In this document: one piece after another, positions 37,986 through 42,173 of the stretch | Layout: every line of letters starts with the position of its first letter | How positions within the stretch are numbered: position 1 is the stretch's first letter | Source of the DNA: Hyphomicrobiales bacterium | Lineage (GTDB): Bacteria > Pseudomonadota > Alphaproteobacteria > Rhizobiales > Methyloligellaceae | Assembly: GCA_021775575.1 (NCBI GenBank) | Contig: JAJFHO010000054.1 | Location: 1-45,560 of the forward strand | Direction of reading: 5' to 3' | DNA length: 45,560 bases | The notes under the pieces: generated by a model | Told to the model about the DNA's origin: nothing | What the model saw: only the letters and a program-made list of their open reading frames with translations | Database searches by the model: none | Translations under genes and position numbers: made by a program

Positions 37986-38051
37986 GACTCATTTCGGCCT
38001 CATAAGCCACGAAAAATCCACAAGTTCTCCACATGTTCTCTCTGGACAAGA

Positions 38052-38085
38052 GAGTCCCGATTCGACTCAAATGAAATAGTGATTC
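38052..38085. promoter_or_regulatory. cluster of four GANTC (CcrM) sites upstream of the PleC-like gene
   Basis: GAGTC 38052-38056, GATTC 38059-38063, GACTC 38064-38068 and GATTC 38081-38085 lie within 34 bases, 55 to 88 bases before the kinase start. Random expectation is about one per 256 bases. In alphaproteobacteria GANTC is methylated by CcrM once per cell cycle, and such sites in promoters link transcription to replication. The cluster is seen; cell-cycle control is inferred. Confidence 0.6.
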
Positions 38086-38139
38086 GGAGATGCGGCACTT
38101 CTCCATCACGGGGACTGGATAACAACGAGGGGGCCAGAA

Positions 38140-40446
38140 ATGGCGCGGGCGCGATCCGCCCGCCAGGGTGCGGTTTTGCGCCCGGCGGAGGGATTCCGGG
38201 AAGGATTCCTGGATTCAAAACTGATAACAACGCTTTCAAGCGAACGTACTTTGCGGCGGCTTGTCTCCTACCTGCTGAGCATCTTTTTCCTTTTTTTGCT
38301 GGCCGGCACCCTCAGCCATTTCATAAACGGCAGAAAAGCAGCGCTCGATGACGCGGGGACGCGGCTGACATTGATCGCCGATGCGGTCGCCGCAAGTGTA
38401 AAGGCGAATTCAGGCGAACAGGTCTCCGATTGGCAGAATATACTTGCCCGGAGTCTTCCCGCCGGAGCGACGAGCGATGAACGCATCGTCATGCTGGCGG
38501 ATATGCAAGGCCGCGTGCAGGCCCGCGCACCGCTCACCGGACAAAAACCCGGCACGCCATTGTTGAAAATCCTGGGGTCGCATCAACCGCTCACCACATT
38601 CGGGGCGCAGGCCGGGGTCCTTGCTCACAGGCTGGCGGACGGCAGCGAAGCCCTGGTCACCGTGCGCAATATCATGGCCGCACGCTTCCAGATTGCCGTC
38701 ATGCAGCCAACCGAAAGCGCGCTCCAGCAATGGCGCCGCGAAGCAGCGGTCGACACGACCTTATCGCTGACGACGGGAATGCTGCTTTTGATGATCGGCG
38801 TGGCATTTCGTTCGCATTCGGAAAGAACGGCCGAAGCGGAAGCGAAGGCATCCGCATTTCGGGACAAGATCGAGATGGCGCTCGGCACGGCCGGCATGGC
38901 CCTATGGGACTGCAACGTGGCCCGCGGACATATTCGCAGATCCGGGTCCGCTCATGGCCTCCCGGGTCCGGCGGACAATAACCAGCTCCTCTCCTTCCGC
39001 GATGTCTCGGCGATGCTGCACCCCGAGGACAATCTCTACGTCATGATCGAGAAAGCCCTGGGTGCCGAGGCACCCGGCCTCGATACGTCGCTGCGCATGC
39101 GGACGGGCGATGAGACCTGGAAGAGAATTGCGCTGAGGGGCGCGTTCCGGCGGGACGACGAAGCGAACGAGTTGCATCTGATCGCCATCGTCGCCGATGA
39201 GGAAGTCGGCAGCGGCACCATTACGGCCCAGCCAAGCGACCCGACTCTTCATGATGCCATCGAAGCGATCTCCGAGGCCTTCGTTCTATGGGATGCGGAA
39301 AACCGGCTGGTGATGTCGAACAGCAAATATCGCGAGTTCCATAAGCTGCCGGAAGAGCTTCTGGTCCCGAAAACGCCCTATGAGCACATTCTCGCCGCCG
39401 CGACGGAACCGGTCGTGCGTACGCGCATCGTCGTGAATGACGACGACGACTCCGGCGCGCGCACCTATGAAGCACAGCTTGAGGACGGCCGCTGGCTGCA
39501 TATCGACGAGCGTCGGACCAAGGATGGTGGTTATGTGAGCATCGGCACGGACATAACGTCGATGAAACTGAGCCAGCAGCGTCAGCGCGACGGCGAGAAG
39601 GAGTTGAAGGCGACGATCGCGGATCTGCGGAATTCACGGCGGGAACTCGAGCAGCAAAAGCAGCAGCTTGTCGACCTTGCCGAAAAATACGCCCAGGAAA
39701 AGAACCGCGCCGAGGTCGCGAACCAGACCAAGTCGGAGTTTCTGGCCAATATCAGCCATGAGCTTCGTACGCCACTGAATGCGGTCATCGGTTTTTCCGA
39801 AGTGATGCAGAATGGCCTGTTCGGTCCGTTGGGCAGCGCCAAATATGATGAATATGTCAACGACATCCACCAAAGCGGCAACTATCTCCTGGAAGTGATC
39901 AACGACATTCTCGACATGTCCAAGATCGAGGCCGGACGCATCAACCTGAATGTAGAGAACGTAGATGTCGGCGAGATCGTCGAGGACAGTCTGCGGATCA
40001 TTGCACCGACAGGTGCCGAACAGGGGATCGAGATCAAGCGCACGGGACTGGGGCATTTAACCATGCAGGCCGACCGCCGCGCGCTGAAGCAGATTTTTCT
40101 GAACCTGTTGTCGAATGCCGTGAAGTTCACCCCCGACAAGGGCAAGATTACGGTTCGGCTGACCAAGGTGTCCGGGCACGTGCGCATCGCGATCACCGAC
40201 ACCGGTATCGGCATACCCGTGACCAAACTCGATAATCTCGGCAGGCCGTTCGAACAGGTTCAGAACCAGCTCACCAAGAATCACAAAGGCAGCGGGCTGG
40301 GTCTTGCGATCTCGCGTTCCCTGGTGGAAATGCACGGCGGCAAGTTCGAGATCAAGAGCAAGGAAGACAAGGGCACGACGGTCATCTGTCTGCTGCCGCT
40401 GAAACCTGTCATACGCGGCGCGGAGATCGCGAAAAAAGCTGCCTAG
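38140..40446 (+). CDS. pleC: PAS-containing histidine kinase, PleC-like
   Basis: A 768-residue sensor kinase. Membrane segments at about 41-64 and 206-224 enclose a periplasmic domain of about 140 residues. PAS domains follow at about 240-355 and 370-475, then a coiled coil to about 530. HisKA has His540 in Ser-His-Glu-Leu-Arg-Thr-Pro-Leu-Asn-Ala-Val; the ATPase has an N box at 655-663, Asp-Thr-Gly-Ile-Gly-Ile-Pro at 687-693 and Gly-Ser-Gly-Leu-Gly-Leu at 717-722. The HisKA region (Gly-Pro-Leu-Gly, Ile-Leu-Asp-Met-Ser-Lys-Ile-Glu-Ala-Gly-Arg) is very like Caulobacter PleC, a kinase/phosphatase of DivK and PleD that sets cell polarity. The ATG at 38140 follows a GAGGGG ribosome site. Four GANTC sites lie upstream. 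Another PleC/PdhS paralogue cannot be excluded. Confidence 0.82.
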   Translation: MARARSARQGAVLRPAEGFREGFLDSKLITTLSSERTLRRLVSYLLSIFFLFLLAGTLSHFINGRKAALDDAGTRLTLIADAVAASVKANSGEQVSDWQNILARSLPAGATSDERIVMLADMQGRVQARAPLTGQKPGTPLLKILGSHQPLTTFGAQAGVLAHRLADGSEALVTVRNIMAARFQIAVMQPTESALQQWRREAAVDTTLSLTTGMLLLMIGVAFRSHSERTAEAEAKASAFRDKIEMALGTAGMALWDCNVARGHIRRSGSAHGLPGPADNNQLLSFRDVSAMLHPEDNLYVMIEKALGAEAPGLDTSLRMRTGDETWKRIALRGAFRRDDEANELHLIAIVADEEVGSGTITAQPSDPTLHDAIEAISEAFVLWDAENRLVMSNSKYREFHKLPEELLVPKTPYEHILAAATEPVVRTRIVVNDDDDSGARTYEAQLEDGRWLHIDERRTKDGGYVSIGTDITSMKLSQQRQRDGEKELKATIADLRNSRRELEQQKQQLVDLAEKYAQEKNRAEVANQTKSEFLANISHELRTPLNAVIGFSEVMQNGLFGPLGSAKYDEYVNDIHQSGNYLLEVINDILDMSKIEAGRINLNVENVDVGEIVEDSLRIIAPTGAEQGIEIKRTGLGHLTMQADRRALKQIFLNLLSNAVKFTPDKGKITVRLTKVSGHVRIAITDTGIGIPVTKLDNLGRPFEQVQNQLTKNHKGSGLGLAISRSLVEMHGGKFEIKSKEDKGTTVICLLPLKPVIRGAEIAKKAA

Positions 40447-40505: not shown

Positions 40506-41024
40506 CTATTCGGGACTATCCCCCCGCCGGCCGCCCCCGCGGCGGCGATGCCGCTTGGATCTGAAGATTTCCAGAATACGGTGGCGCTCCTTGACCGTCA
40601 TATCGCGGACAAGCTCCAGTGAGAGCGTATGCAAGCCCAGCTGCACGTCGCTGCGAAGCTGACGCAGGTCGGCCAGAGCGCTGGCCAGGTTTTCCTCACT
40701 ATAGGGGTCGGCCTTCAAAGCCTTCACCACCGTCGCAACCACTTCACGTCTGCCCGCCGCCCGCGGGAAAACTTCACTCCGCAATCTGGCCAGAACAGCT
40801 TCGGCAGCCCCGCGATTGCTCTCCGGAAGCTCCGTCATGATCTGCTCAATTGTCGCTTCAAACGCCTTGTGCTTGCTGATCCGCGTCTTGCCGTGACGGA
40901 ATTTCCAGAGTGTTCCGGCGATCAGACCGACAAATAACAGGTTCAGTGCAAGCGATATGATGAGCACGGGCTTGACCAATCGCCGTTTCGGAGCGGCCGC
41001 GCCTGAGGGTTGCGGACTGCTCAC
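40506..41024 (-). CDS. periplasmic heavy-metal/envelope sensor, Spy/CpxP-like
   Basis: A 172-residue protein with one N-terminal membrane segment (about 20-40) and an all-helical periplasmic domain with repeated Leu/Arg-rich heptads, ending in a very basic tail of Arg, His and Gly. This is the layout of the CnrX/ZraP/Spy-like family linked to ECF sigma factors. It starts with GTG at 41024, which overlaps the TGA of the anti-sigma gene (GTGA), so the two are translated together. It probably senses metal or protein damage in the periplasm and modulates the anti-sigma factor. The Arg-rich tail is unusual. Confidence 0.72.
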   Translation of the reverse strand: MSSPQPSGAAAPKRRLVKPVLIISLALNLLFVGLIAGTLWKFRHGKTRISKHKAFEATIEQIMTELPESNRGAAEAVLARLRSEVFPRAAGRREVVATVVKALKADPYSEENLASALADLRQLRSDVQLGLHTLSLELVRDMTVKERHRILEIFRSKRHRRRGGGRRGDSPE

Positions 41025-41533
41025 AGAAGCCCCTCCTGGTCGCCGCCATTTCCGTCGAGCATGAATTCGCTGGAATCGGTCTCCACGGCCGCCGTGCCAA
41101 GTGAGGCCATGTCGATTGCTTGATTGATAGTCGTCGTGCCAAGCCCCGCTACACCCAGATAAAGACCAAGCGCGAAGGACGCCGCCATCGCCGCCGCCGG
41201 CCACAAGGAGCCCTTTCCATACCCCAATCCGTCCCGCCGTGCTTTTCGCGCAGACGAAATCGGAACGATACGGGGCTCACGAGCGCCATCGGCGATCGCC
41301 GCATCGACAATACGCTGCTTCAGGGCCGCGTCCGGCGTCCCGGCCGGCGCATGGCTCAACACTTTTTCAAGCGCGATTGCCTCATTGTGAACCCGCGCCG
41401 CGGACCGGTCGGAGCGCAGCAGCAATTGCAACGCCTCAGATTCCTTTACCGGCCAGCCAGCCGGGTCGGCCCCGTAAATGGCCAACACGTCATTCAAACG
41501 CTTCAACTGTTCGCTGTTGCCTGTCATTTTCAT
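41021..41533 (-). CDS. anti-sigma factor of the ECF cassette
   Basis: A 170-residue single-pass membrane protein if started at ATG 41533. An AGGA lies 7 bases upstream; ATG 41536 or GTG 41539 are close alternatives. The N-terminal 90 residues are a cytoplasmic domain rich in Leu and Ala that fits a sigma-binding anti-sigma domain, a membrane segment spans about 109-128, and about 40 residues are in the periplasm. There is no conserved zinc His-x3-Cys-x2-Cys motif, so it is not a ZAS-type redox anti-sigma factor. Gene order sigma, anti-sigma, Spy-like sensor suggests signalling through the sensor domain. The assignment rests more on position than on sequence. Confidence 0.68.
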   Translation of the reverse strand: MKMTGNSEQLKRLNDVLAIYGADPAGWPVKESEALQLLLRSDRSAARVHNEAIALEKVLSHAPAGTPDAALKQRIVDAAIADGAREPRIVPISSARKARRDGLGYGKGSLWPAAAMAASFALGLYLGVAGLGTTTINQAIDMASLGTAAVETDSSEFMLDGNGGDQEGLL

Positions 41534-41549
41534 CATCACGTCCTGCCGG

Positions 41550-42173
41550 CTATTCTTGATCTTCCGGCAAAAGTCCCCGCCATGCTGGCGAGAGTTTCTG
41601 TTTCAGTGTCCGCCGCCCGCGCGCCAGCAGAGACTCTACAGCCTCCACGCTGATCTCCATCATCTCCGCCACGGCCGCCATCGACAAGTCTTCGTAGTGG
41701 AACAACACAAGCGCCATTCGCTGCCGCTCGGGCAAAATCTGCAGCGCATCGTCCATGAAAGCACGAAGATCGTGCTCTGCCACCGACTGAAACTGGCTTG
41801 CCGGAACAGGTGAGTCGGGAATGTCGGCGACCGTATCCTCGCGCCGCGCTCTCAGCCGGTCGATGCACAGATTCACTGTAACCCGGTACAGCCATGTCGA
41901 AATCTGCGCACGGCCTCCGTCCCATTTTTCTGCCTGCCGCCAGAGACGCAACAGCGCCTCCTGCGAAACATCCTCTGCTTCGGCGGAACTCCCCAGCATC
42001 CGGCGGGCAACCGCCAATACTCTTTCCAGTCGCGTATCGACGAGCTCGCTGAAGGCAACCGCGTCGCCTCCCGCAATACGCGCCATCAACGCCTCGTCGG
42101 CTCGTCTCGCTTCGCTCAGCGGCTGACCGGACGAGGATTGCGACTGGTCCGGTTCCGGCTCTTCTGATGGCAC
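41550..42173 (-). CDS. ECF (sigma-70 family, group 4) RNA polymerase sigma factor
   Basis: A 207-residue ECF sigma factor. Region 2 spans about 40-110 with Ala-Glu-Asp-Val-Ser-Gln-Glu-Ala-Leu-Leu-Arg-Leu-Trp and a Trp-Leu-Tyr-Arg-Val-Thr-Val-Asn helix; region 4 spans about 135-195 with Leu-Pro-Glu-Arg-Gln-Arg and a Ser-Val-Glu-Ala-Val-Glu-Ser-Leu-Leu-Ala-Arg-Gly recognition helix. The first 25 residues are acidic and Ser/Gln-rich, beyond the usual start. The stop is about 16 bases before the anti-sigma start. A small exported protein precedes it by about 21 bases. It likely switches on an envelope or metal stress regulon when its anti-sigma factor releases it. Confidence 0.9.
   Translation of the reverse strand: MPSEEPEPDQSQSSSGQPLSEARRADEALMARIAGGDAVAFSELVDTRLERVLAVARRMLGSSAEAEDVSQEALLRLWRQAEKWDGGRAQISTWLYRVTVNLCIDRLRARREDTVADIPDSPVPASQFQSVAEHDLRAFMDDALQILPERQRMALVLFHYEDLSMAAVAEMMEISVEAVESLLARGRRTLKQKLSPAWRGLLPEDQE

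Follow-up and report, generated by a model that had tools for sequence, protein, structure and literature searches.

GcrA acts on sigma70 and on open-complex formation. The closest described counterparts of the promoter analysed here are the GcrA/CcrM sigma70 promoters of Caulobacter (ctrA P1, mipZ, podJ P2 and pleC), in which GANTC lies near the -10 and -35 elements of a cell-cycle gene. In Caulobacter, activation by GcrA is reported to depend on the motif YGAKTCK (PMC7987155) and on where this motif lies relative to the promoter elements. A GANTC between -10 and -35 accompanies activation at 40-60 min in this organism (PMC4287350). ChIP-seq placed pleC among the Caulobacter loci where GcrA binding needs CcrM; the evidence on pleC from that work is GcrA binding, and regulation of pleC is not part of it (PMC3667746). 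The GcrA proteins of Sinorhizobium meliloti and Brucella support the growth of a Caulobacter gcrA mutant.

The gcrA and repABC promoters of Agrobacterium tumefaciens also carry several clustered GANTC. Reporter tests showed effects of methylation or of the sites, and gcrA is repressed by full methylation (PMC11514494). In its account of CcrM depletion, the main text of that study makes no mention of pleC. A cell-cycle small RNA, EcpR1, which has a conserved GC-rich loop (UCCGCCGCAUCU), targets gcrA and dnaA in S. meliloti. The pleC mRNA of S. meliloti goes down upon EcpR1 overexpression and up in the deletion, whereas a pleC-egfp fusion showed no response to this sRNA (PMC4414408). In Xanthobacteraceae, Beijerinckiaceae, and Hyphomicrobiaceae, pleC is among the top predicted EcpR1 targets (PMC4414408).

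We analysed a stretch of 45,560 nucleotides, hereafter designated the window, from a Hyphomicrobiales bacterium of the Methyloligellaceae, whose assembly consists of 281 contigs and whose closest named relatives are Methyloceanibacter. The region upstream of its pleC-type gene resembles the Caulobacter promoters in the placement of GANTC near putative -10 and -35 elements, in the extended YGAKTCK motif, and in the presence of both CcrM and GcrA. It differs from them in that two to four sites are held at a fixed spacing, one at the putative -10 element and one at the putative transcription start, and are kept across orders. With the A. tumefaciens promoters it shares the clustering of several GANTC in a Hyphomicrobiales promoter; full methylation represses gcrA there, whereas the effect at pleC may have either sign. 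As in the EcpR1 targets gcrA and dnaA, the pleC leader shows complementarity to the GC-rich loop that is conserved in EcpR1. The published EcpR1 site of S. meliloti pleC lies over the start codon, whereas the match in the window is located in a predicted hairpin near the putative 5' end.

The kinase gene and its upstream region

The gene (38140..40446, + strand) encodes a sensor histidine kinase of 768 amino acids with the Pfam domains PAS_7, HisKA, and HATPase_c. Its H-box, HELRTP, is conserved in the ortholog alignment, its membrane helices were read by eye, and full-length orthologs are approximately 40-60% identical. The pepN gene (TIGR02414, 1243 bits) is directly upstream, and glnE lies downstream, further along in the window. 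The S. meliloti ortholog, found by tblastn, has an annotated pepN upstream in a record that gives no gene name to the ortholog itself, and pepN-like and glnE-like flanks were also read by eye in Rhizobium, Roseibium, and Mesorhizobium. The original prediction called the gene PleC-like, and the PleC-type architecture together with the pepN-pleC context fits this; on the same two grounds, we assign it a putative PleC function. A Shine-Dalgarno-like GAGGGGG (38127..38133, + strand) precedes the start codon by a few nucleotides, and its AGGGGG is kept in the family. In one relative (L006 1501), CTG replaces ATG as the kinase start, and the surrounding start region is conserved. On the - strand between pleC and glnE (40506-42173) are genes for an ECF-type sigma factor (Sigma70_r2/r4) and a Metal_resist-domain protein, together with an ORF that has no Pfam match.

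Re-reading of the sequence upstream of the gene confirmed the four GANTC sites within 34 bp (38052-38085) on which the original prediction was based. No strand is assigned to the sites themselves. Site a (GAGTC, 38052-38056) does not match YGAKTCK, and site b (GATTC, 38059-38063), which abuts site c, fits it as CGATTCG. Site c (GACTC, 38064-38068) fits on the - strand as TGAGTCG, and site d (GATTC, 38081-38085) is embedded in TGATTCG, a form of the motif reported for GcrA activation. Three of the four sites therefore fit YGAKTCK when either strand is counted. Sites c and d are designated the core sites.

The window holds 93 GANTC in 45.6 kb, compared with 226 ± 12 in dinucleotide shuffles. Its own rate is approximately one per 490 bp, rather than the one per 256 bases that had been expected in the original prediction. 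The accompanying statement that GANTC is often depleted between genes is contradicted by its over-representation in the intergenic DNA of Alphaproteobacteria (PMC3973325). When 93 sites were placed randomly in the window, a group of four within 34 bp arose with a probability of 0.0028, and first-order Markov sequences, which lack the GANTC depletion, had a comparable cluster in 2 of 60 cases. The cluster is unusual for one window, but one such cluster somewhere in a 4 Mb genome is unremarkable, and therefore it is conservation that carries the case. A survey in 2010 concluded that GANTC counts alone cannot point to methylation control (PMC2877005).

The sites coincide with a putative core promoter. 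A -35-like hexamer, TGGACA (38043..38048, + strand), is separated by 18 bp from a -10-like hexamer, TCAAAT (38067..38072, + strand), and transcription is predicted from the sequence to start near 38080. In this layout, sites a and b would fall in the spacer between the two hexamers, site c would overlap the -10 element on its upstream side, and site d would lie at the transcription start. The -35-like hexamer, in the form TRGACA or TCGACA, is the anchor in 109 loci and is present in two other orders, and the GANTC followed by AAAT at the -10 element is kept across families. An Rfam scan of the promoter gave only a sub-threshold viral match, which we took as chance.

Two DnaA-box-like sequences, ATCCACA (38016..38022, + strand) and CTCCACA (38027..38033, + strand), are located farther upstream. 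The first is identical to one of the DnaA motifs given for Caulobacter, and the second also matches Caulobacter DnaA motifs (PMC4287350). TCCACA is present at most 50 bp upstream of the -35-like hexamer in 28 of 29 Methyloligellaceae loci, compared with 2 of 80 other loci. Because these boxes are confined to the Methyloligellaceae, DnaA boxes were rejected as a component of the module in other families. Other families often carry TTAAC in place of TCCACA. The S. meliloti pleC promoter is bound by CtrA without a measured effect (PMC4433202).

The kinase ORF holds three further GANTC in its opening codons (38192, 38204, and 38212), none of which fits YGAKTCK. They come from the segment 38187-38216, in which a 12 nt unit occurs twice in nearly identical form (GGAGGGATTCCG and GGAAGGATTCCT) and is followed by GGATTC. 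An exact direct repeat of 10 nt (GATAACAACG) occurs at 38118-38127 and 38223-38232, 105 bp apart, with the start codon between its copies. The start-site motif was considered as a repeated element and rejected, as the genome contains it just once when 0 mismatches are allowed. A GANTC lies 2-16 bp upstream of TGATTCG at only four places in the genome; one of them, a similar GATTC...TGATTCG pair (L154 1439-1462; G000:C221:6938-6961), is located approximately 50 bp upstream of a methyl-accepting chemotaxis protein-like ORF.

Conservation of the site positions

We compared 109 loci from the same family, the same order, and named genomes, all anchored on the TRGACA/TCGACA hexamer. The -10 site, a GANTC 14-15 bp after the -35-like box, is present in 102 of them, and the start-proximal site, 27-37 bp after the box, in 95. 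Almost all of the start-proximal sites (91 of 95) match YGAKTCK on the + strand. An additional GANTC is found 2-11 bp after the box in 51 of the 109 loci. The mean number of GANTC in the 60 bp after the -35-like box is 2.48, compared with 0.08 for the remainder of these loci. The corresponding means of seven control pentamers in the 60 bp are 0.02-0.76. An anchor score of at least 4 was reached by 88 of the 109 real regions, by none of 109 coding controls, and by none of 545 shuffles. The anchors were partly chosen by the presence of sites, a bias that an anchor-free repeat limits but does not remove. In this repeat, which covered the 300 nt before the start, at least two GANTC within 34 bp were found in 60 of 62 loci versus 15 of 558 background segments, and three within 34 bp in 27 of 62 loci versus none of 558.

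Among promoters with less than 70% identity, the -10 site is kept in 45 of 50. In these 45 promoters its G, A, T, and C are invariant, and the central base is T in 39, A in 3, C in 2, and G in 1; most of the spacer columns in the divergent promoters contain approximately 0.1-0.3 bit. A varying centre flanked by invariant GA and TC fits what CcrM recognition would predict. A locus from another genus (L012) has all four sites with nearly the same spacing as in the window. S. meliloti, which belongs to the same order, has four GANTC in 52 bp, at offsets of 4, 16, 30, and 51 after TGGACA, and in two other alphaproteobacterial orders the sites are located at 4, 16-17, and 30-38. Among 41 relatives, a pattern with this spacing occurs approximately once per genome, mostly at pleC. 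The original prediction had named absence of the cluster in relatives as the result that would refute it; the positions proved to be strongly kept, both within this order and in at least two others.

Exceptions were observed among the 109 loci. L020, L029, and five Methylobacterium loci have no -10 site at the usual position. The start-proximal site is missing in 14 loci, mostly from Rhizobiaceae and Bartonella. The Methylobacterium pleC loci that have lost the -10 GANTC at the usual offset include L187 (2171-2230), L097, and L101, and in the latter two a GAATCGTATACGATTC palindrome stands in its place.

The genome encodes GcrA (185.9 bits) and CcrM, a methyltransferase of 369 amino acids with a RAMA domain (71.9 bits). 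The presence of both proteins, the YGAKTCK matches, the CcrM-dependent binding of GcrA at Caulobacter pleC, and the cross-complementation by GcrA all favour a promoter of the GcrA/CcrM type. We consider it probable that the cluster is the core of such a sigma70 promoter and that it drives pleC. Late in the cell cycle, CcrM would methylate the promoter sites, and sigma70-bound GcrA would recognise the sites near the -10 element in their methylated or hemi-methylated state and stimulate the formation of the open complex. When the replication fork passes, the sites would become hemi-methylated, which would reset the promoter output until CcrM returns. PleC would in turn feed back, via DivK, on the CtrA pathway controlling ccrM. 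Methylation, GcrA binding, and the sign and timing of pleC regulation are steps that we infer. The original prediction further suggested that pleC expression could depend on chromosome position and cell-cycle stage, which would make PleC a target of the clock that it controls. This interpretation is partly supported: the conserved sites and the presence of CcrM and GcrA fit it, but the loop is not new, as it is already implied in outline by the Caulobacter data.

A predicted leader hairpin and EcpR1

The putative 5' end of the transcript can be folded into a hairpin, GTGAT-TC-GGAGA-TGCGGCACT-TCTCC-ATCAC (38079..38109, + strand), which directly follows or overlaps the start-proximal site. The folding energy of the single sequence was discarded as proof of this hairpin, because the leader in the window folds no better than shuffles (z -0.4) and only the cross-family pairing test is significant. 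The sequence of the stem varies by family while the pairing is kept, with p<0.05 in 20 of 54 loci compared with 4-6 of 54 in control windows; the 54 loci are related, and a combined p-value would overstate the result. In Rhizobiaceae and Hoeflea, the start-proximal GANTC is lost (GGTTC, GATCC) and the pairing is retained. Therefore, conservation of the start site does not speak for methylation only, and it may result partly from the RNA hairpin. A leader peptide starting from 38090 (ATGCGGCAC) was also considered and dropped, since its frame and stop are not kept in the alignment.

The segment GGAGATGCGGC (38086..38096, + strand) is a candidate sRNA site with perfect complementarity to the EcpR1 loop over 11 nt, and the EcpR1 of the same genome contains its complement, GCCGCATCTCC. 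The EcpR1 gene (RF02500; L181 1422-1533, - strand) is located between a pleD-like gene and rpmG and scored 92.5 bits, with a gathering score of 60. A genome search with the EcpR1 loop alone gave 10 places, the same as the control, and therefore the presence of EcpR1 is settled by the Rfam match. Complementarity to the EcpR1 loop over at least 7 nt was found in 30 of 64 leaders, compared with 0-8 of 64 in control windows. Shuffled motifs matched a mean of 2 leaders, with one reaching 20. The modelled duplex between the leader and EcpR1 is not exceptional, as 68 of 1300 window segments score equally well. We designate the pairing of EcpR1 with the pleC leader as a candidate regulatory layer.

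The two elements might together form an ancient two-layer module of pleC. Its promoter would be timed by methylation, with GANTC fixed at the -10 edge and at the start, and directly after it a 5'-end hairpin would present the EcpR1 target; the GANTC at the start site would serve both layers. We regard this proposal as tentative and rather unlikely. If it were true, the replication state would set the transcription of pleC, and stress would set the life of the same message.

Alternative readings and biological meaning

The GANTC at 38081 could be kept mainly as part of the leader hairpin with its EcpR1-target loop rather than for methylation, while the -10 site would still belong to GcrA/CcrM. 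This explanation, which is partly compatible with the GcrA/CcrM promoter, is a possible one, although on the whole we doubt it. It would account for the pairing that persists through changes of the stem and through the loss of GANTC in Rhizobiaceae and Hoeflea, and it draws on the enrichment of complementarity in the leaders (30 of 64), on the EcpR1 gene in the same genome, and on the shift of S. meliloti pleC mRNA with EcpR1 and the target predictions in three families (PMC4414408). However, the Methyloligellaceae keep GATTC though the conserved pairing need not include it, and 91 of the 95 start-proximal sites fit the GcrA motif. The unresponsive pleC-egfp fusion of S. meliloti, the fold of the window leader, and the duplex energy matched by other window segments also argue against it.

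The overlap of the -10 GANTC with the -10 element, followed by the conserved AAAT, could mean that GA.TC is read directly as promoter sequence by sigma or another activator, methylation being incidental. We consider this improbable: any of the four bases can stand at the centre between an invariant GA and an invariant TC, and similar GANTC recur at several separate positions, as is expected of the palindromic CcrM target more than of a sigma element. It is less probable still that some of the sites are shielded from methylation by a bound protein, as in MucR-type protection, so that the promoter would have two states instead of acting as a replication timer. A few GANTC in Caulobacter do stay unmethylated, some of them bound by MucR (PMC7987155), and T-rich sequence is present upstream in many families, but such sites number just 27 in Caulobacter and nothing here indicates the pleC sites. 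A chance cluster within an intergenic region richer in GANTC would be unsurprising somewhere in a 4 Mb genome at the rate of the window, yet as an explanation it is almost certainly wrong. Conservation of the site positions across families and orders speaks against it, and for the core sites at 38064 and 38081 it is refuted; for the sites at 38052 and 38059 it may hold, since their exact form is common to only one other genus.

In the best reading, the pleC promoter would be a well-conserved further case of the known GcrA/CcrM promoter type. The conserved sites fit a kinase gene whose expression would follow the same methylation clock that it helps to set. Heavy rewiring of the GcrA/CcrM regulons has been reported even among closely related genera (PMC7987155); a pleC promoter with GANTC positions stable across several alphaproteobacterial orders would be among the few stable nodes of the network. 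S. meliloti, with the same four-site layout, makes this reading of the promoter directly testable. If it is confirmed, the gene for the DivK phosphatase would be under a replication-coupled clock outside Caulobacter and linked to a stress sRNA.
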